Positions 2,340 through 61,466 of a stretch of 64,000 nt of DNA are shown in pieces. Position 1 is the stretch's first letter; every line of letters begins with the position of its first letter. A program made the position numbers and the translations under genes. The stretch covers positions 1 through 64,000 of the forward strand of contig JAGLDH010000008.1 in NCBI GenBank assembly GCA_023145835.1. Direction: 5' to 3'. This stretch comes from Methylococcales bacterium. Lineage in GTDB: Bacteria > Pseudomonadota > Gammaproteobacteria > Methylococcales > Methylomonadaceae. The notes under the pieces were generated by a model that searched no databases, was not told the origin of the DNA, and was given only the letters and a program-made list of their open reading frames with translations.

Positions 2340-2915
2340 ATGAAATTAATACAATTAAATAAGCAAATTACACTAATGTTAACGTCTCTATTTATATTCA
2401 GTCAATATGCAAATGCGGCTGATATAAAGGCAGGAAAGGAGGCATCTACTCAGTGTGAAGGTTGTCATGGTATTAATGGTGATAGTCAAAGCTCACTTTT
2501 TCCTAAGCTGGTTGGGCAGAAAGGCTTGTATTTAGAGGCGCAACTAAAAAAGTTTAAATCAGGAGCGCGCTCAAACTCAATGATGAAAGGTGTCGCATCC
2601 AATTTAACAAAACAAAATATAGAAAATGTAGCTGCATTTTATGCAAGTCTTACTTCAAAAAAAGGTGTGGCTGGTGATTCAACTTTAGCAAAAAAAGGAG
2701 AGGCTAAAGTGGCTATGTGCCAAGGTTGTCATGGATCTTCTTTTGAGGGTAGGGGGGTTATGCCAAAGTTAGCAGGTCAACATCCTGACTACATTAAAAA
2801 GCAGTTAGTTAATTTTAAATCTAAAGCAAGAAAAGGTGAGCCTATGAATTCAATGACATCGTCTTTATCTGAAGAAGATATAAATGAAATATCAGCTTAT
2901 TTAGGTGGTTTATAA
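2340..2915 (+). CDS. Diheme cytochrome c4-type protein, periplasmic
   Basis: The mature protein has two c-type haem motifs, CEGCH at residues 39-43 and CQGCH at 127-131, in two homologous halves. Each half ends with a likely methionine ligand region (SNSMMKG and EPMNSM). This is the cytochrome c4 / class I diheme layout, a periplasmic electron carrier that usually feeds terminal oxidases. The start at 2340 follows a GAGG at 2327-2330 and gives a clean signal peptide cleaved after YANA (residue 26). The frame is open back to 2229, but that extension adds nonsense before the signal peptide. Length (191) is typical. No oxidase subunit is adjacent, so the partner is unknown. Confidence 0.88.
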   Translation: MKLIQLNKQITLMLTSLFIFSQYANAADIKAGKEASTQCEGCHGINGDSQSSLFPKLVGQKGLYLEAQLKKFKSGARSNSMMKGVASNLTKQNIENVAAFYASLTSKKGVAGDSTLAKKGEAKVAMCQGCHGSSFEGRGVMPKLAGQHPDYIKKQLVNFKSKARKGEPMNSMTSSLSEEDINEISAYLGGL

Positions 2916-2980
2916 AAGATTTATAACCATATTAAGTGGAGTGAGCTAATTCCTACTCTTCAAATAGGCTGATTTATGGT

Positions 2981-3151
2981 TATACTTCGCGTGGTGTCAC
3001 GGATGCAGTTTTCTATCAGTTGCTTTTCGCTGATAGGCTGCGTTGCTGAAATGGTTGTGTAGCTAGCCCAGCTATGCGCCCATTTCAGCGCCTTACTATC
3101 GACAAGAATCAACTCGCTATAAAATCCGCATCCGTGACTGCGCGAAGTATA
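2981..3151. repeat. 171-bp near-perfect long palindrome (family member 1)
   Basis: Left arm 2982-3054 (73 nt) and right arm 3080-3150 (71 nt) are reverse complements with a few mismatches. The outer 25 bases (ATACTTCGCG...TCACGGATGC) and the inner GCTGAAATGG pair well; the middle is imperfect. The 25-nt loop at 3055-3079, read on the minus strand, is GCGCATAGCTGGGCTAGCTA followed by CACAA. The same loop core and arm sizes recur at 6705-6866. It fills the gap between cytochrome c4 and the next gene, and the ORF readable on its minus strand is an artefact of the repeat. Confidence 0.85.
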
Positions 3152-3239
3152 ATCGTATTCAAATACTGGCTGAAGACAGCTAAAAATAGCAAAATGATTT
3201 ATCATAGGGCAAAAAAATGATAAGTTTTCTAAACCTATA

Positions 3240-5474
3240 ATGAACACAACGCTAAAACAGCCAATAGATCGAAACGTTTCTTTAATCGTATTATTTGCAG
3301 GTACATTATTCATCAGTGCAACATTGATGTTTGTCTTGCAACCTATGTTTGGTAAAACACTTTTACCTTTGTTGGGTGGCTCACCTGCTGTGTGGAATAC
3401 CTGTATGGTCTTTTATCAAACTATTGTGTTTTTTGGATATTTATATGCACATTTTTTATCGACGAAATTTAGCCCACATCGACAAATACAAATTCATGCG
3501 GTAGTTATTGCGATAAGTCTGATTGCGTTACCCATAGCGTTACCTGAAAATACTTTTCCACCAACAGACAGTGATCCGACTTTTTGGTTGATGTGGACTT
3601 TGTTTCTAGCTATTGGCTTGCCTTTTTTTGTTGTATCCACTACCTCTCCTTTGTTACAAAAATGGTTTTCAGGTGTGGGGCATCATACGAGTGAAGATCC
3701 TTATTATCTTTATGCTGCGAGTAATGCTGGCAGTATGATTGCTTTATTAAGTTACCCCTTTTTTTTAGAACCAAACATTGGTTTGCTCGATCAGAGAATT
3801 TTTTGGAGTATAGGGTTTGGCTTTTTATGCCTATTGGTTGCAGGTTGTGCATTTATTTTATGGCGCAATCAGCAAACAACGAGTGTAGAAAATGTAGTTG
3901 AGCTTGATACAGCAGAAGAATTATCTTTATCAAAAAAATTGCATTGGTTTGCGTTAGCTTTTGTTCCCTCTAGTTTATTGTTAGGGCTGACTAACTTTAT
4001 CAGTACAGATATAGCTTCAGCTCCTCTCTTGTGGATTATTCCACTGACTTTGTATTTATTAACCTTTATTCTAGTTTTTTCTAAATGGACAGATAAAATT
4101 CATTCCATAATGGTTTGGATTCAACCGGTTGTTTTATTGCCATTTATTGCTTATTCTTTTGTAGACCCTGGTGCATTACCTTACTGGTTGAACCTTATTT
4201 TACATTTACTTGCTTTTTTTATAGCAGTGATGGTCTGCCATGGAGAGTTAGCTAAAAATCGTCCACATACTCAACATTTAACTTATTTTTATCTGATTAT
4301 GTCGTTTGCAGGCATGTTAGGTGGAATGTTTAACACCTTTGTTGCACCGTTTGTTTTTAATGCAATTTATGAATACCCAATTATGATTGTGGCTGCATTA
4401 TTATTAAGGCCAGGGTTAATAAATTCACAGAAACCTGTTTTACAGGCAATGTTCCCTTTATTGTTATTGTGCCTAGGATTAGGTGTTTATTTTTTTAGTG
4501 ATAATTTATCTCAGGCACTAGTTTATGGTGTGACTAATGGTTTAATTCTACTTGCAGGATTAACTTATGCTTTTCGTTCACGACCTATTAGCTTAGCTTT
4601 ATTAGCGGGCGTTATTTTGTTTTTTGCCTTAGGGATACAGTATTTAATTTCAAACACTATTTACCAAGAACGTAGTTTTTTTGGTGTACTGTCAGTTAGA
4701 CAAAGTGTGTTGATGGATGAAAAAAAACAACCAGAAAAGTATCATGAATTATTTCATGGGACTACTAAACATGGGGCACAACGACTTGCAACTCATTTAC
4801 AAACTACACCACTGACTTATTACAGCCGACCTGGGCCGATGGGACAATTATTTAGCGCTTATGATAATCAAAGCAGTCAATGGGAAATTGGGGCGGTGGG
4901 TTTAGGTGCTGGCGCGTTAGCTTGTTATGCAAAACAACAGCAACATTGGACTCAATATGAGATTGATCCATTAGTCATAGAGGTCGCACAGAATACAGAT
5001 TATTTTACTTATTTAAAGCGATGCAGTAAAAACACAACCTTTACTGTAGGCGATGCACGTTTATCTTTAGCTAAGGAGCCAGATCAAAAATTTGATTTAT
5101 TGATTATGGATGCTTTTAGCTCTGACTCTGTTCCTACCCATTTATTAACCCGTGAAGCGATGGCACTTTATTTTACTAAACTTAAACCAAGCGGTATATT
5201 GGCATTCCATATTACCAATCGACATTTAGATTTAAAAAAAGTTATTGCTGACCATGTAAAACATTTAAAGCTAGCTGCATTAATACAAGAATTTAAGCCA
5301 AAACAAGAAATACCATTAGTCATTAATACTGATTGGGTAGTGATGGCCAAACAAGCTGATACATTGGCTCCATTACAAGAAAACACAACGGGGTCTTGGC
5401 AAAAACTCCCCTTATATTTTGATATGAAGCCATGGACAGATGACTTCACTAACATTATTGGAATCTGGAAATAA
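3240..5474 (+). CDS. Fused multi-spanning membrane / spermidine-synthase-like protein
   Basis: Residues 1 to about 490 form a hydrophobic domain with roughly a dozen predicted membrane spans. The C-terminal part (about 530-744) is a Rossmann-like domain with the spermidine synthase (PABS) layout: AVGLGAGALA as the nucleotide-binding loop, YEIDPLVIEVA, then GDARLSL and LLIMDAFSSDSVPTHL. This is the architecture called fused MFS/spermidine synthase. Substrate and aminopropyl transfer activity are not demonstrated for most members. The stop is one base before the lpxD start (TAATATG), so the two are probably co-transcribed. No clear Shine-Dalgarno precedes its ATG. Confidence 0.82.
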   Translation: MNTTLKQPIDRNVSLIVLFAGTLFISATLMFVLQPMFGKTLLPLLGGSPAVWNTCMVFYQTIVFFGYLYAHFLSTKFSPHRQIQIHAVVIAISLIALPIALPENTFPPTDSDPTFWLMWTLFLAIGLPFFVVSTTSPLLQKWFSGVGHHTSEDPYYLYAASNAGSMIALLSYPFFLEPNIGLLDQRIFWSIGFGFLCLLVAGCAFILWRNQQTTSVENVVELDTAEELSLSKKLHWFALAFVPSSLLLGLTNFISTDIASAPLLWIIPLTLYLLTFILVFSKWTDKIHSIMVWIQPVVLLPFIAYSFVDPGALPYWLNLILHLLAFFIAVMVCHGELAKNRPHTQHLTYFYLIMSFAGMLGGMFNTFVAPFVFNAIYEYPIMIVAALLLRPGLINSQKPVLQAMFPLLLLCLGLGVYFFSDNLSQALVYGVTNGLILLAGLTYAFRSRPISLALLAGVILFFALGIQYLISNTIYQERSFFGVLSVRQSVLMDEKKQPEKYHELFHGTTKHGAQRLATHLQTTPLTYYSRPGPMGQLFSAYDNQSSQWEIGAVGLGAGALACYAKQQQHWTQYEIDPLVIEVAQNTDYFTYLKRCSKNTTFTVGDARLSLAKEPDQKFDLLIMDAFSSDSVPTHLLTREAMALYFTKLKPSGILAFHITNRHLDLKKVIADHVKHLKLAALIQEFKPKQEIPLVINTDWVVMAKQADTLAPLQENTTGSWQKLPLYFDMKPWTDDFTNIIGIWK

Positions 5475-5475
5475 T

Positions 5476-6510
5476 ATGACACTGACTGTTAAAGAACTTG
5501 CTCAACTTTGTGATGCAGAAATACAAGGTGATAATACCTCTATAGAAATACTGGCTGCAGCAGATATTATGGCTGCAACAACAAACCAAGTTACTGTACT
5601 AAGTAGTAGTAAATATTCTAAATATTTAAAAGAAACGACTGCATCAGCTTGTTTTATATCAAGTCAATTCTCTACGGATGGTGCGCCTAAAAACTTGGTT
5701 TTTTTGTTATGTGACGACCCAGAAATTAGTTTTTTAAAAGCCGTTAGCGCATTACACCCTACGCCTAAATTGACTCGGTCTATTTCTAAACAAGCTTCAA
5801 TTGCTGACAATGTTACTTTAGGGAAAGATATTCATATTAGTGCTTTTTCTACTATTGAAGAGCACTCTACTATTGGTGATGAAACAGAAATTTTTGCGAG
5901 TGTCAGTGTAGGGCGTAATGTGACAATGGGTGAAAACTGTCGTATTTATCCTAATGTAGTTATCTATGATAATACTCAAATAGGAGATAATGTCATTATT
6001 CATTCTGGTACGATTATTGGGGCTGATGGGTTCGGTTATAAATACCGTAATAATGAGCACGTTAAAGTGCCTCATGTAGGAAATGTTATTATTGATGATA
6101 ATGTTGAAATTGGTGCAAATACTTGTATTGATAGAGGTGCTTTAGGCTCAACAACTATCGGAGCAGGTAGCAAAATTGATAACCTAGTACAGCTAGGCCA
6201 TAATAATCAAGTCGGTAAAAATGTCATTATTTGTGGTCAATCGGGTATTTCTGGATCATGTACGATAGGAGATGGCGTCGTTTTAGCTGGAGGTGTAGGC
6301 GTTGCAGATCATGTGAATATTGGTCATCAAACAGTAGTCATGGCAAGAACGGGTGTGGCGAGTAATGTTGAGCCTTGTTCACAAGTTTTTGGTAGCCCAG
6401 CTAAAGATAAAAAAGTCGCGTGGAGAGAGCTAGCTGCTCTAAGTAAATTACCTGCACTATTTAAAAAATTTAAAGAACTGGAAAGTAGAATTGGGAAGCT
6501 TGAGGAATAA
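5476..6510 (+). CDS. lpxD: UDP-3-O-acylglucosamine N-acyltransferase LpxD
   Basis: LpxD adds the N-linked acyl chain to UDP-3-O-acylglucosamine, the third step of lipid A synthesis, in the cytoplasm. The N-terminal 100 residues form the uridine-binding domain. From about residue 105 the sequence is a left-handed beta helix of hexapeptide repeats (for example IGDNVIIHSGTIIG), with the conserved GADGFGY segment and a helical C-terminus. The start at 5476 gives 344 residues, close to E. coli LpxD (341); the frame opens 36 bases earlier inside the previous gene. It is not beside bamA, fabZ or lpxA, the usual location, so it may be a second copy or a relocated gene. Confidence 0.9.
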   Translation: MTLTVKELAQLCDAEIQGDNTSIEILAAADIMAATTNQVTVLSSSKYSKYLKETTASACFISSQFSTDGAPKNLVFLLCDDPEISFLKAVSALHPTPKLTRSISKQASIADNVTLGKDIHISAFSTIEEHSTIGDETEIFASVSVGRNVTMGENCRIYPNVVIYDNTQIGDNVIIHSGTIIGADGFGYKYRNNEHVKVPHVGNVIIDDNVEIGANTCIDRGALGSTTIGAGSKIDNLVQLGHNNQVGKNVIICGQSGISGSCTIGDGVVLAGGVGVADHVNIGHQTVVMARTGVASNVEPCSQVFGSPAKDKKVAWRELAALSKLPALFKKFKELESRIGKLEE

Positions 6511-6704
6511 ATGTATTGTGATGAGAAAGGGTAAAGTTGTTACTTATATTAAATACAATAAGCAAACTAATTGACTCTGTCAGCTTTATCAATGAATCAA
6601 TATATTGGGTTAGGTATTTTGCCTTTTTTTATTGAGCTCATTTCAGACTCATTTTTTAATTGGAAAATACTGTTTAAGATGCTGATGACTACTACTCAGT
6701 ATAT

Positions 6705-6866
6705 TAAGTACCCAAGTAAAATTAATTTGACAATTTTACCCAGGATTTTTTTTCATTTTAGACACCGAATAAATAGGCGCATAGCAAGCTACGTAACTAT
6801 TTATTCGGTGTCTAAAATGGTAAAAAAGGTAAGCAAAAAGTTAAATTAATTTTACTTGGGTACTTA
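6705..6866. repeat. 162-bp near-perfect long palindrome (family member 2)
   Basis: Left arm 6705-6776 (72 nt) pairs with right arm 6797-6866 (70 nt). The outer 23 bases (TAAGTACCCAAGTAAAATTA...) and the inner 26 or so (ATTTTAGACACCGAATAAAT...) are perfect, with about 22 imperfect bases between. The 20-nt loop 6777-6796 is GCGCATAGCAAGCTACGTAA. Arm length, outer/inner pairing pattern and loop core match the palindrome at 2981-3151, but the arm sequences are unrelated. Confidence 0.85.
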
Positions 6867-6939
6867 TGAATCCATAAATGCCACCCACAATACTTATATA
6901 AACTAGATGTCTTCTGTGAATTCCTTGGTAAAATTGTCA

Positions 6940-7153
6940 ATTTGCTGCTGACAAGGTAGTAGAACTCGATGTTGAGTTACGTTATCAGGCCGCGTATTTA
7001 CAGAATCTGAATTTGATTGAACGTTTGTGGTGTTTCATCAAAAGTAGATACTGTTGTCGTAAATATTATGATAACTTCGGAATCTCTAAACCTAGTATTG
7101 CCCTACATATCCGTGAAGTACTCACTTCAAAAAAGAAATACAAAGTTTTGTGA
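6940..7153 (+). pseudogene. Remnant of an IS630-family transposase C-terminus
   Basis: The frame through 7001 reads ...AAYLQNLNLIERLWCFIKS, which matches the end of the IS630/Tc1-mariner DDE domain (usual form YSPNLNLIERLWKFFKK, carrying the catalytic glutamate). Decayed helical sequence follows, with stops at 7151 and 7157. No N-terminal half, start codon or inverted repeats are seen nearby, so this is a dead fragment next to the long palindrome. Confidence 0.6.
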
Positions 7154-7364
7154 CCATGAAGTTTCAATTATTATAAAAACCGAAAGCTTGATCGTGTAAA
7201 GTATAAATATTAAGGGTCTCTTTTTTGAGGTTGCTAGTAAGTTTTAAGCTTATTGAATTGTCTGATAGGGTGTTGTTTTTATAAACAAGACGATGAATTT
7301 TAATCGGTAATTTTTTTAGAAGCTAATAATTTAAGGTATGACTAGATTGAATAGTCCGTTTAAC

Positions 7365-7838
7365 TTATCGTTTCCAATGCCCTGATTTGCCCCCATCTTT
7401 TTCAAGTAGTTGAACTGATTGAATTATCATTCCGCGGTCTACAGCTTTACACATATCGTATATTGTCAATAACGCAATTTGTGTCCCAGTTAAAGCCTCC
7501 ATTTCTACGCCAGTTTGCCCATTAGTTTTGACAGTGGTTAGACAATGGATTCGATTGTTTTCTTCCTCTGCTGATAATTTTATGTCTACATGGGTAATTG
7601 GGAGTGGATGACACAGTGGAATTAAATCGGCTGTTTTTTTACTTGCCATGATCCCTGCAATTCTAGCAATACCCAGAACATCTCCTTTTTTATGATGGCC
7701 TGTAGTAATTAATTCCATCGTTTCAGGCTGCATTTCTATATAGCCTTCTACGATAGCTGTGCGTTGAGTGATAGTCTTTTTTCCAACATCAACCATATGA
7801 GCTTCGCCGGATTGATTAAAATGGGTAAGTTTAGTCAT
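7365..7838 (-). CDS. moaC: Cyclic pyranopterin monophosphate synthase MoaC
   Basis: MoaC converts the 3',8-cyclo-GTP made by MoaA into cyclic pyranopterin monophosphate in molybdenum cofactor synthesis. The sequence has the family landmarks MVDVGKK near the N-terminus, [11 protein letters not shown] with the active-site histidine, and MCKAVDRGM with the conserved aspartate and lysine. Length 157 is normal. It is transcribed away from moaD-moaE with 52 bases between the starts, so the two units share a control region. moaA and moaB are not in the window. Confidence 0.95.
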
Positions 7839-9142: not shown

Positions 9143-9681
9143 CTCGGGTGGCTTGCCCCCGAGCTGGATAGCTTACAATGGGGCTCTTTCCATTGTCAGG
9201 TATTCAGCTTATGGAGTTACAGAAGAATACGCATCATGTCTATCGATTAATGTATCATTTTGTATGGATACCCAAATATAGGCATAAGGTATTTAGTGAG
9301 CCTTATGATGAAGTACTAAAAAGGATTGTTGAGAAAATCGGGTATGACTATAATATTGATATTGTTGAATTAGAAATACCTGTAGATCATTTGCACATGG
9401 TTGTTCGTGGAGAACCAAAGATGTCACCGGGCGATGTGATGCAGATAATAAAAAGTATTTCTGCTCGAGAGTTTTTTCGGCGTTACCCGGAGATCAAAAA
9501 ACGATATTTCTGGGGTAGTAAACTATGGACACAAAGTTACTTTGTTGAAACTATAGGAAATGCCAATGAGGAAGTGATCAGAACTTATGTTCAGGGTCAG
9601 CTTACAGAGCATGAGAAAAAGGGTAATAAACCGCAACAGCTCGATTTGTTTTAAAACTCGGTTCGCTTGCGGCCGAGTTTT
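9143..9681 (+). mobile_element. IS200-type insertion sequence (tnpA only)
   Basis: A single Y1 transposase gene is flanked by two subterminal hairpins: CTCGGG/CCCGAG at 9143-9163 on the left and AAAACTCGG/CCGAGTTTT at 9653-9681 on the right. This is the IS200 organisation: no terminal inverted repeats, no tnpB, and hairpins recognised by TnpA. The right hairpin overlaps the tnpA stop and ends in a T-run, so it may also terminate transcription. Exact cleavage points are not determined; both ends lie within about 15 bases of these limits. Confidence 0.8.
9211..9654 (+). CDS. tnpA: IS200-family transposase TnpA (HUH, Y1)
   Basis: A 148-residue protein with the HUH metal-binding pair in PVDHLHMVV and the nucleophilic tyrosine in QSYFVETIG. 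Other family landmarks present are the N-terminal HHVYRLMYHFVWIPKYRHKV strand-helix and KSISAREFFRRYPEIK. Length equals typical IS200 TnpA (about 150), with no frameshift, so the enzyme looks intact. The ATG at 9211 is preferred over an in-frame upstream start at 9178, because the family begins at the HHVY segment. Confidence 0.9.
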   Translation: MELQKNTHHVYRLMYHFVWIPKYRHKVFSEPYDEVLKRIVEKIGYDYNIDIVELEIPVDHLHMVVRGEPKMSPGDVMQIIKSISAREFFRRYPEIKKRYFWGSKLWTQSYFVETIGNANEEVIRTYVQGQLTEHEKKGNKPQQLDLF

Positions 9682-15692: not shown

Positions 15693-16170
15693 TTAACCTG
15701 TAGCAGTCTTGTGATTTGTCTGATCATATTCTAACCTGGCGTTGTAAATTTCATCTGTATGTTCATCGCTCCAGTTTACAATGGCCTCAAACAAGGGTTT
15801 AAGGCTTTCCGCAAGCTTAGTTAGCGTGTATTCAACACGAGGAGGAATATCTTCTATTGTGCTCGCACAACTACCCCATCTCTTTGTAATTATCGTAATT
15901 ATTGGGTTAACATTCTTTGAGAAACTCCTCCAATTGCAGGTAATAACAGATTAAAACGCATTTTTTCACCTTTAAGGAGCCTCTGGGAAAGTTGACATTA
16001 TAAAAAATAATGTTCAATTAATTCAATGTGTTATGGTCTATTGAATCGTTACTTTAAGACTTAATTAGAGGCTCCTTAAGGTTCCATAAAATCTCAGGCT
16101 TCAATCTACCTGCAATAATACCTAATGTATTTCCAATTGGACAAGAGAAATTGTATTGATGTTTAGCCAT
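15693..16170 (-). pseudogene. HxlR-family transcriptional regulator, interrupted and decayed
   Basis: Read on the minus strand from 16170, the N-terminal part (FSCPIGNTLGIIAGRLKPEI then LWNL) is a typical HxlR winged-helix start with the redox-sensing-type cysteine. It is cut by a 100-bp insertion at 15976-16075. Beyond it the gene resumes with KGEKMRFN, then GVSQRMLTQ, two in-frame stops where LR and E codons are expected, a frameshift, and finally PPRVEYTLTKLAESLKPLFE to a stop at 15693. Removing the insert and one target copy restores WNLKGEKMRFN. HxlR regulators typically control divergent oxidoreductase genes, and here pirin and FMN-reductase genes lie divergently. Confidence 0.85.
15976..16075. 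mobile_element. 100-bp MITE inserted in the HxlR gene, TTAA target duplication
   Basis: The element begins GGAGCCTCT (15976-15984) and ends AGAGGCTCC (16067-16075), a 9-bp perfect terminal inverted repeat. It is flanked by TTAA at 15972-15975 and 16076-16079. It has no coding capacity. A TTAA duplication fits the YTAR target described for the IS5 group, which is why I suspect an IS5-related parent. The end at window positions 1-25 looks related. Confidence 0.8.
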
Positions 16171-17657: not shown

Positions 17658-18547
17658 TCATAATGGGTGGCTGGTACAGTCTTAAATATTTAGTATTTTA
17701 AGGCAGTATCAGACCTTGGATATTAAATACTTAACTGTTCCATATAAGAAAATTTAGCATAACGAATAATATTTCTTCGGACACGACGATACCAAAGACC
17801 ACGTTAACCTCATTTTATTCTAACCTTTGATATTCTTTCATCTTTAGGTTATCCCTTTGAAAACTGAGTTTTAGTAATCTTCTAACGATTAGAAATATCA
17901 TCACCTTCTGGTACTTTTCTAACCCAATAAAATAAACTCAAGTAACTCTGGTTATCTAGGCATTACACTTGCAATTTTTTATTACTTTCTGGTTTGTTGA
18001 GTGAAGAATTTAGCTCAAAATTATAAGTATTCATAAACTGTTAGCTACATAAATTCCAAAAGGTTTTATGCCTCCCTTTCAAATTATCTGAAATTTGTGA
18101 TGAATTACTCAAAAAACACCCCTTGTTGTCAGGATTATATGATTTAGTTCACAAATTTATTTTGAACTAAATCATATAATTCAAAACACTTATATTTAGT
18201 AGGGTTGGTGTCATCCCCCAAGTCTTGTTTCTTAAATTATTGGTTTAAAAGGATTTTGAATAATAATAGCTTTGTCCAATATGTCATGATTATGTTTTGT
18301 TGAAATGGAGTGGAGTTGGTGACTTGTATTTGAGGAGGCTGTGAGCTACAGGTTTTGAGTTTAATAAGTATGTTTCATAAGAGGGCTGGATCTCTTCTAA
18401 AATTCATTTTTTTATATATTGATATCAGCAAATTTTTATTAAGTTATTACCCCGAAAGGAAACGTTAATTAAAAAAAGAGAAATAATAAAACTATTGGTT
18501 TGAATAAAAAGAGTACTCAAGATTACATTCAACATAAGAGGATTAAA
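17658..18547. other. 890-base AT-rich region without recognised genes
   Basis: No protein-like reading frame is visible on either strand. The clear structure is the 18-bp palindrome at 18134-18180. The sequence directly upstream of the next gene is purine-rich and carries its ribosome binding site. The rest shows no tRNA, recognised riboswitch or inverted-repeat element. Confidence 0.4.
18134..18180. repeat. 18-bp perfect palindrome with 11-nt loop
   Basis: ATTATATGATTTAGTTCA (18134-18151) is the exact reverse complement of 18163-18180, separated by 11 AT-only or nearly AT-only bases. There is no T-run of terminator length beyond it. It could be a cruciform, a degenerate terminator or a protein site; its role is unknown. 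Confidence 0.7.
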
Positions 18548-48976: not shown

Positions 48977-49039
48977 TTTTGTTAAAAAAGATGAACTTAC
49001 TATTATGTTAGATAATAGTAAATTCATCGTTGTGAAAGA

Positions 49040-56306: not shown

Positions 56307-56313
56307 AAAAATG

Positions 56314-56364
56314 ACTATTTAGCGTATTTTATAGTTAAGGGTTGTGAAAAATACGCTAAATAGT
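56314..56364 (+). terminator. Strong 17-bp hairpin after hpf
   Basis: ACTATTTAGCGTATTTT pairs perfectly with 56348-56364 around a 17-nt loop. A second hairpin AATAAAGGTAAA / TTTACCTTTATT follows at 56365-56401. A T-run is short, so these may be terminators or 3'-end stabilisers for the rpoN-hpf transcript. Confidence 0.5.
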
Positions 56365-56509
56365 AATAAAGGTAAAAAGGTAAAAAATCTTTACCTTTAT
56401 TCTGCAGTTTTTGCGATAATTCACCAAACGACAAGTATCTTTATAGTAAGTACTTTAATTACACTAAGAGAGAGTCATTAGCCCTTAATTTATTTTCACA
56501 CACCTGCTT

Positions 56510-60884: not shown

Positions 60885-61166
60885 AATGTTTAAAGAGCTT
60901 ATTTAAAATATAAGATTAAGGTAAATAATAGAGAAAAAGGTTCAGCTCATTAGCACCAAAGCATAAGAATAGCTAAAATTTTTCTAGTTTTCTTATCTCT
61001 ATGCAAATGATTTCAATCATAGTAAGAAAGAACTATACGCTTTTTGAGTATATTTAAACAGAATACCAAGCGTGGTAAATCCCTTAAAGTAGCATATGAA
61101 CGATACAGGAGGTGCTGATTAACAGCTATAGCATTCTGTTTATTACTGCAAAGACATAAAGATGTA

Positions 61167-61349
61167 CCTGATTACCCACAAGCTTCCGCCATATTAACGG
61201 ATATTTTATAAGTCATTGAAAAATTTCCTATATTTAATTATGAAAATCCAACTTAAACTTTTTCTTCGATTGGGTTAAAAATATAACTACTATATTTCAT
61301 AATGTTACATCTAGCTTCCTAAAGTGGCGGAAGCTTGTGGGTAATCAGG
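61167..61349. mobile_element. 183-bp MITE with 25-bp inverted repeats and 8-bp target duplication
   Basis: CCTGATTACCCACAAGCTTC begins a 25-bp repeat (61167-61191) that is the exact reverse complement of 61325-61349. The element is flanked on both sides by AAGATGTA, at 61159-61166 and 61350-61357, a perfect 8-bp target duplication. The 133-bp interior has no ORF. It sits in the lptD-amgK divergent spacer, about 110 bases before lptD. Confidence 0.9.
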
Positions 61350-61466
61350 AAGATGTATAAAAAAATCTTATGCAAGCTATAGAACTAATTTCATACGCAC
61401 TCTTAAACTGATGTAAAATAACTGGCTATTTTATTCTAATATTGTCAACATTACAGGCACGGATTT

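Follow-up and report, generated by a model that had tools for sequence, protein, structure and literature searches.

The best-known bacterial miniature inverted-repeat transposable elements (MITEs), Correia/NEMIS, ERIC (RU-1) and YPAL (RU-2), form families that are each tied to a few genera and to one set of ends, and cutting by RNase III has been proposed for NEMIS transcripts (accessible part of PMC2229807). The MITEs of “Ca. Thiomargarita nelsonii” have TATA ends and a long hairpin and were found on more than 100 contigs, with the IS630 family mentioned in this connection (accessible part of PMC4853749). We analysed a 64,000-nucleotide stretch from the genome of a Methylococcales bacterium (Methylomonadaceae; GenBank assembly GCA_023145835.1, contig JAGLDH010000008.1, positions 1 to 64,000, forward strand; hereafter the window), which contains two long palindromes, elements A and B. 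We think it reasonably probable that both are copies of a widespread, two-layered class of MITE-like, non-autonomous DNA transposons in which a folded strand, most likely RNA, aids propagation.

Two palindromic elements and their families

A first-pass annotation of the window had noted palindromes at 2981-3151 and 6705-6866, each with a well-paired outer arm, an imperfect middle and a well-paired inner arm, and both the coordinates and the pairing pattern were correct. The loop that it described as shared, GGCGCATAGC..GCTAC, is indeed common to A and B, but the two loops lie on opposite strands (A, minus, from 3080 down to 3054; B, plus, 6776-6797), and the elements are therefore oppositely oriented. 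Their features are as follows.

2981-3151, core on the minus strand: element A, a family A palindromic element of 171 nt with ends TATACTTCGCG / CGCGAAGTATA
2981-2997, plus strand: left terminal inverted repeat of element A
3054-3080, minus strand: apical part of element A, GGCGCATAGC...GCTAC.CAAC, 27 nt (5 shorter in most copies)
3135-3151, minus strand: right terminal inverted repeat of element A, TATACTTCGCGCAGTCA, with 0 mismatches
6705-6866, core on the plus strand: element B, a family B palindromic element of 162 nt with ends TAAGTACCC / GGGTACTTA
6742-6745, plus strand: left side (AGGA) of a recurrent internal loop in element B, column consensus AGGATTTTT / AAAAAGACAAG
6776-6797, plus strand: apical core of element B, GGCGCATAGCAAGCTACGTAAC, columns 60-81 of alignment A1
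6828-6833, plus strand: right side (GGTAAG) of this recurrent internal loop; most other copies of B read GACAAG here

Folded as single strands, element A (minus strand) reached -76.0 kcal/mol (z -9.2) and element B (plus strand) -78.3 kcal/mol (z -14.7), with 0 of 200 dinucleotide-preserving shuffles as good in either case.

The two copies of the first-pass annotation are both real but turned out to be members of multi-copy families. Covariance model R1, built on a 116-nt core and applied at E <= 0.01 to the best 150 of 1740 first-look candidates in the window genome, gave at least 56 matches, two of which were the second strand of a place already counted, leaving at least 54 core-bearing places. 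With element A, blastn returned 35 matches in the genome, several of them both strands or parts of a single copy, and its near-full-length relatives had 69–87% identity. Element B had 13 further copies with 92–98% identity, 12 of full length and one ending after 136 of the 162 nt, as well as fragments, and was matched by blastn in eight of the nine genomes of the genus, the window genome included. The apical letters of A and B recur in a third family, C (ends GGACTGAGGA), and in singletons, L054 and L056 among them. Further copies are numerous in this genome, contrary to the first of the two outcomes that the first-pass annotation had named as refuting it. Elements were mostly 156–171 nt long between the outer repeats and longer in Bacteroidales. 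Miniatures of 38–64 bp, hardly more than both ends, were also seen in this genome with family B ends (L036, L037, L042, L046, L050, L052), and similar ones with GGAACTGT ends in a Lachnospiraceae genome (L291, L292, L293).

Distribution of the core

The core pattern GGCGCATAGCNNGCTAYGNAAC was present in at least 118 stretches of a species-level genome collection, where about 4 would be expected by chance by our own arithmetic. Its hosts include Methylococcales (several genera as well as Bathymodiolus symbionts), “Ca. Venteria ishoeyi”, Bacteroidales, Lachnospiraceae and other Clostridia, one Selenomonadales bin and SAR324; the core is spread across phyla. Copies were also seen in Methylomicrobium sp. 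wino1 and Clostridium sp. MCC353, neither of them labelled as a metagenome bin. After eight of 122 exact matches with less than 40 nt of flank were set aside, 92 of the remaining 114 had flanking arms whose complementarity exceeded that in all 100 shuffles.

The covariance model matched in at least 14 of 274 genomes sampled from the class, with the best 13 candidates scored per genome. In 22 genomes reached through core-bearing loci, and picked because each had a copy, it matched throughout, from one to at least 150 times each (150 being the number of candidates scored) and 145 times in the SAR324 bin. No viral contig with the exact core was found, and blastn of four distant queries against phage and plasmid collections (two per collection) gave no match; a separate query stretch that included neighbouring sequence mostly matched lepA.

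Ends, target duplications and empty sites

The elements are short, lack coding capacity, occur in many copies and bear terminal inverted repeats, as MITEs do. Family A ends in TATACTTCGCGCGGTCA, and other families end in GGAACTG, GGAGTGAGG, GGACTGAGG and similar sequences with a TWA duplication. When ends starting with GG or GA were sought between TNA triplets, a frame that is imposed by this count, 59 of 151 distinct elements had them, and the two triplets were equal in 53 of the 59 (TTA 29, TAA 23, TCA 1). Since a palindrome would make the two sides complementary, a middle base that is equal on both sides does not belong to it. In family A (TA/TATA) and in family B (TA), the duplication is inseparable from the ends.

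Empty sites could be read to the base in paralogous repeats of two Clostridia genomes (L145 versus L294 and L295; L266 versus L121), in which the empty copy holds one TAA and the filled copy reads TAA-element-TAA. At the locus of element A, a relative (G005, L219) has 151 nt without an element or model match between a cytochrome gene and a gene of 744 residues, where the window has 324 nt including the 171-nt element. The two flanking genes are 52% and 78% identical between G005 and the window, respectively (the latter without a Pfam family), and the junction of element A could not be placed to the base in G005 because the flanks are too diverged. The empty-site comparison suggested by the first-pass annotation has an outcome at two levels, a corresponding gene junction without element A and base-exact empty sites for sister families, and its concern that both sites might be present in all relatives as ordinary terminators is not borne out at G005. 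Mobility, which that annotation had proposed, is well supported by the terminal inverted repeats, the equal triplets on both flanks and the empty sites that sister families show to the base.

Elements are mostly intergenic, with five of 74 classed elements outside the genus lying inside a reading frame, and both orientations and all gene arrangements occur.

Some copies were themselves altered. At L289 (646 to ~830), an element appears by eye to be a hybrid with a left half of the GGAACTG type and a right half of the AGAGCGTGTTT type, possibly a snapshot of end exchange through the core. A GGAACTG-type element at L290 (512-807) has another palindrome (TAGTAAACGACAAA..) within its arm. Short repeats (CGACTG..GGATGCAGGAGGTAGAG.. 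and others) are inserted in the arms of elements at L075, L091, L105, L118 and L134 (left), L115 and L160 (right), and L077 and L135; several of these lie at the middle internal loop, and they may be a nested element preferring that spot. We also had the impression, uncounted, that copies often lie at contig ends.

Covariation and strand asymmetry

We aligned 41 diverse cores (alignment A1) to a hand-drawn structure of 43 pairs, which was drawn partly from the same sequences. Paired cells made up 79.7% versus 62.1 in shuffles and 41–45 in slid controls, two-sided cells numbered 349 versus 142 and 100–171, and the covariation score was 0.442 versus 0.172 and 0.12–0.17; these shuffles ignore relatedness, which, like the origin of the drawing, favours structure. 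Two-sided changes occurred in 34 of the 43 pairs. The view that the palindromes are structural elements maintained by compensatory change, one of two offered by the first-pass annotation, is supported by these values.

The tip takes the form GGC-[stem]-CNNG-[stem]-AAC, and its stem was changed on both sides in model-found copies of other gammaproteobacteria (CATAC-GTATG in L196, ATGTAG-CTACAT in L194). Unpaired features recur as well: a 2x2 step GC/AA below the tip; in many families, CAAGGC / AACGC in the middle; and, adjoining a U5/A5 helix, a GGA / GAC internal loop in most of the families outside A and Bacteroidales. The left side of the internal loop (AGGA in element B) forms tandem G.A with the right side in many families. 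Mismatched internal loops persist at fixed distances across phyla, and the middle internal loop is lost in some families, where the arm is fully paired.

The two strands were not equivalent. On the GGCGCATAGC strand, mismatches flanked by Watson-Crick pairs comprised 87 G.T, 20 A.C and 114 others (inner 45 nt, 61 elements), and distinct one-sided events in ten families, counted with one orientation per element, were G.T in 144 cases versus A.C in 89 (p 4e-4), with 133 compensated. Of 79 non-redundant elements, 64 had the more stable fold on the GGCGCATAGC strand, with a mean difference from the complement of 9.8 kcal/mol (p 3e-11, RNA parameters), and 68 did so when the arms were taken alone. 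Tolerance of G.U is typical of RNA.

A conserved folded strand is well supported by these observations: one strand folds better and the arms covary, and selection on that strand, probably as RNA, is favoured over arm copying. The other proposal of the first-pass annotation, a mobile hairpin that copies its arms from one strand, is not supported as the main cause, since copying would erase the conserved mismatched loops and predicts strand equality. On the strand asymmetry and the retained mismatched loops, we reject it as the sole cause; it may act alongside selection, given that the middle loop is lost in some families. Old local copies show little or no bias, which suggests that the propagating lineage, and not each insertion, is what selection acts on.

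No Rfam 15 family reached its gathering threshold on window positions 2500-7500 or on elements taken from 15 loci in four groups, and the hairpins had sub-threshold miRNA-type matches only. A Clostridiales-1 RNA (131 bits, L121 726-887) lies ~310 nt from one element and is apparently an unrelated neighbour.

Transposase remnants and the search for a partner

Downstream of element B, the window carries a decayed transposase with a terminal repeat.

6950-7150, plus strand: decayed remnant of the C-terminal part of an IS630-like (DDE_3-like) transposase with 67 open codons, lying 84 nt after element B
7189-7205, minus strand: family-A-like terminal repeat closing the transposase remnant, TATACTTTACACGATCA, 4 of 17 bases different

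The remnant has relatives in L377 and L378 (tblastn E 9e-11 and 1e-6), matches Pfam DDE_3 below threshold (E 0.063), and contains LNLIERLW, which we take to be a motif of IS630-type enzymes. In the window and in L377, a family-A-like repeat follows shortly after the frame, with 20 of 26 and 22 of 26 bases equal to the Methylomicrobium form. The enzyme of family A was thus most likely IS630 / Tc1-mariner-like, with TA-type sites, and would now be decayed in the copies seen, in line with the old, diverged state of family A copies. Because two IS630-like remnants end in a family-A-like repeat and the TWA families end otherwise, one core is combined with at least two kinds of transposon ends.

The first-pass annotation had also advised looking for a linked transposase or nuclease; we found no linked gene, and no protein recurred beyond 10 of 118 pattern loci. 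In an all-against-all blastp of the 1742 frames in these loci, the widest cluster held 12 frames from 10 loci, of a sensor-protein type by eye, and the next reached five loci; no transposase was recognised among the neighbour clusters by eye, on which no family search was made. In the two-contig genome G257, the exact 11-mer TATACTTCGCG was found at 34 sites with no facing pair at transposon spacing. Pfam DDE_Tnp_1 had 50 matches in G000, G257 and G085 and none in G005; we compared 30 of these loci (9/9, 12/32 and 9/9, respectively), and the inverted repeats found for 22 of them, taking the best two each, were not of A, B or TWA type, this being the one transposase family searched. In L001-L226 and the window, five candidate pairs of TWA-type ends lay 600–3500 nt apart, and their longest frame was never transposase-like by eye.

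The sequence TWAGGAACTGT occurred at 97 and 50 sites in two Clostridia genomes, of which we compared a part: 10 regions that had pairs or sites at contig ends, and 40 solo sites. Among the solo sites, one partner end closed an ordinary element and two closed miniatures, and no partner at transposon spacing was found except one 9-of-12 match (L311). The 123 frames of at least 120 residues in these 50 loci included no transposase among the 25 commonest of the 188 Pfam and 1493 NCBIfam families matched.

Other repeats in the window

An inverted-repeat element at 15972-16079 has ends TTAAGGAGCCTCT, with related ends at window position 29 (minus strand) and in L052, L057 and L044; the shorter L057 copy has TAGCTTGCTA near its centre. 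It seems to represent a MITE family of its own, with a TTAA-type site. Further inverted repeats with arms of 20–40 nt lie at 61157-61359, 48982-49036, 18134-18180 and 56311-56367.

Interpretation

In the reading that we prefer, the elements have two layers. The outer one would consist of terminal inverted repeats that are cut and pasted by a transposase supplied in trans, with the TWA families, their 3-bp TWA target duplications and other ends representing a different end type from family A. The inner one would be a rod-shaped hairpin formed by the GGCGCATAGC strand, with the tip, the middle loop in many families and the GGA / GAC loop by U5/A5 as its marks. Ends and arm letters would turn over, and paired changes would keep the fold. 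The folded strand may serve propagation of the element, most likely as a read-through RNA that binds, for example, a host or transposase protein; we infer this role from selection that can be seen between families, whereas single old copies drift. That it is RNA rather than single-stranded DNA, and that it acts in mobilisation, is our best guess from the sequences, and the IS630 link as a cause and mobilisation in trans are likewise put forward as probable rather than observed steps. A bolder form of this idea is speculative and we doubt it: the hairpin would be a structured RNA, common to at least four phyla, that forms a replicator module in its own right, rides unrelated transposon ends (IS630-like and TWA-duplicating), swaps them, rewrites its arms under an unchanged fold and actively furthers its mobilisation in trans, for example by holding the transposase or its mRNA.

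Several points weigh against the preferred reading. The hosts are mostly metagenome bins, and single phylum assignments may therefore be wrong. Of the 114 exact core matches, 22 failed the palindrome test, including both SAR324 loci, several Bacteroidales and copies with a one-arm insertion. Of 52 non-redundant cores, 11 were omitted from A1 by eye, in addition to 11 loci removed earlier because of insertions or odd arms, which favours structure; the tip invariance in A1 is partly by construction, the contigs having been picked with that pattern, and model-found copies vary there. The strand bias is uneven: G.T exceeds A.C in eight of ten families, slightly so in the family-A cluster (32/27) and Bacteroidaceae (6/5), and the two are equal in one family (3/3) and reversed in the family-B cluster (14/17). 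G.T wobble is, moreover, found in DNA hairpins too. Orientation to genes, taken as long reading frames only, is weakly biased, with 47 sense versus 29 antisense among 76 co-directional gene pairs (p 0.05), and a smaller locus set showed the same weak bias (33 sense, 16 antisense, both sets together). The third transposase remnant, in L378, does not show an A-type end, and a complete autonomous partner was not found in our limited searches.

A related possibility, tentative in our view, is that the hairpin acts as single-stranded DNA: the strand would be extruded at the replication fork and bound via its tip and loops by a transposase or host factor, which would target transposition. It accounts for the covariation, the strand identity, the weak orientation preference and a role in propagation rather than in a host gene; hairpin-recognising transposases exist (IS200/IS605 TnpA), and the window has an IS200-type Y1 transposase gene at 9178-9651 (Pfam Y1_Tnp, 134 bits). 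The tolerated mismatches, however, are of the G.U type and fit RNA better, and the target duplications and terminal repeats indicate DDE enzymes, not Y1 enzymes, which leave no target duplication. This explanation overlaps with the preferred one, and the confidence that we place in the two is not mutually exclusive.

It is unlikely, to our mind, that the elements are ordinary MITEs whose palindrome is kept by arm correction at the DNA level (template switching or conversion) and whose core is slowly evolving, functionless, inherited and horizontally transferred. The terminal repeats, target duplications, many decayed copies and 38–64 bp derivatives consisting mostly of ends are as expected from such elements, as are the middle internal loop that is lost and fully paired in some families and a strand bias that is absent in family B and small in family A. 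Arm correction nevertheless predicts equal strands, against the better folding of one strand and the overall excess of G.T; the mismatched internal loops kept at fixed distances across phyla speak against it as well, and plain descent leaves a conserved core under different ends unexplained.

The mostly intergenic positions, very strong folds and slight sense preference would suit host-selected transcription terminators or mRNA-stability hairpins of neighbouring genes, but this is most improbable. No T run, such as follows the G+C-rich hairpin of an intrinsic terminator, lies 3' of either A or B, both orientations and all gene arrangements occur, element A is absent at the G005 junction, and sister families have exact empty sites; we therefore largely reject a terminator or a host element at a fixed position.

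MITEs are commonly regarded as passive remains of transposons. Here, what has persisted between gammaproteobacteria, Bacteroidales and Clostridia is the interior rather than the ends, and it bears signs of selection on a folded strand. If the preferred reading is true, a host or transposase partner would recognise the hairpin in very different bacteria, and the elements would be a ready-made class of mobile structured RNA; this would also help to understand the competition of non-autonomous elements for enzymes that are provided in trans. A useful repeat annotation would result as well.

Comparison with known systems

Repetitive extragenic palindromic (REP) sequences and bacterial interspersed mosaic elements (BIMEs) with their Y1 transposases, and IS200/IS605 ends, resemble the present elements as repeated hairpins with a conserved tip. 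REPs are ~20–40 nt long, lack terminal repeats and target duplications, and are linked to the REP-associated tyrosine (RAYT/Y1) transposase, whereas the elements here are ~160 nt with both terminal repeats and target duplication; their separation from REPs in the first-pass annotation agrees with these differences. Structured RNAs of Rfam likewise have a consensus structure with covariation and a strand sense, but no family matched in the stretches compared. Integron attC sites, which have conserved R'/R'' boxes and go with an integron integrase, were considered because they too are imperfect palindromes; ERIC is an enterobacterial sequence of ~127 bp. The IS630 / Tc1-mariner-like group shares the family-A-like terminal repeat, seen on two decayed remnants, and a TA-type target; it differs in that a transposase fragment stands beside the end with no hairpin core there, and the TWA families have other ends. 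In the open literature, searches for the core letters and for similar systems gave no description of these elements; most subscription papers and bioRxiv preprints lay outside this scope.

Correia/NEMIS, ERIC and YPAL, as described in the accessible part of PMC2229807, are like the present elements in being short, multi-copy, intergenic and palindromic, with terminal repeats or target duplication. Unlike them, several families with different ends here share one core, within a genome and across phyla, and keep their fold by paired changes. The MITEs of “Ca. Thiomargarita nelsonii”, compared by description only, are similarly gammaproteobacterial, with TATA-type ends and a long hairpin, and no core shared between taxa is reported for them in the part of PMC4853749 that was accessible, whereas the elements here have one.

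The statement that the palindromes are not standard MITEs hence holds in part: their transposon anatomy is that of MITEs, but a core conserved across phyla under different ends is non-standard. An unconstrained interior, which is typical of MITEs without being part of a strict definition, is replaced here by a covarying fold with loops that recur across phyla. Relative to the best-known MITEs, as far as the accessible parts of the sources describe them, the cross-phylum core, its conservation by paired changes, its strand sense and its combination with different ends are new.

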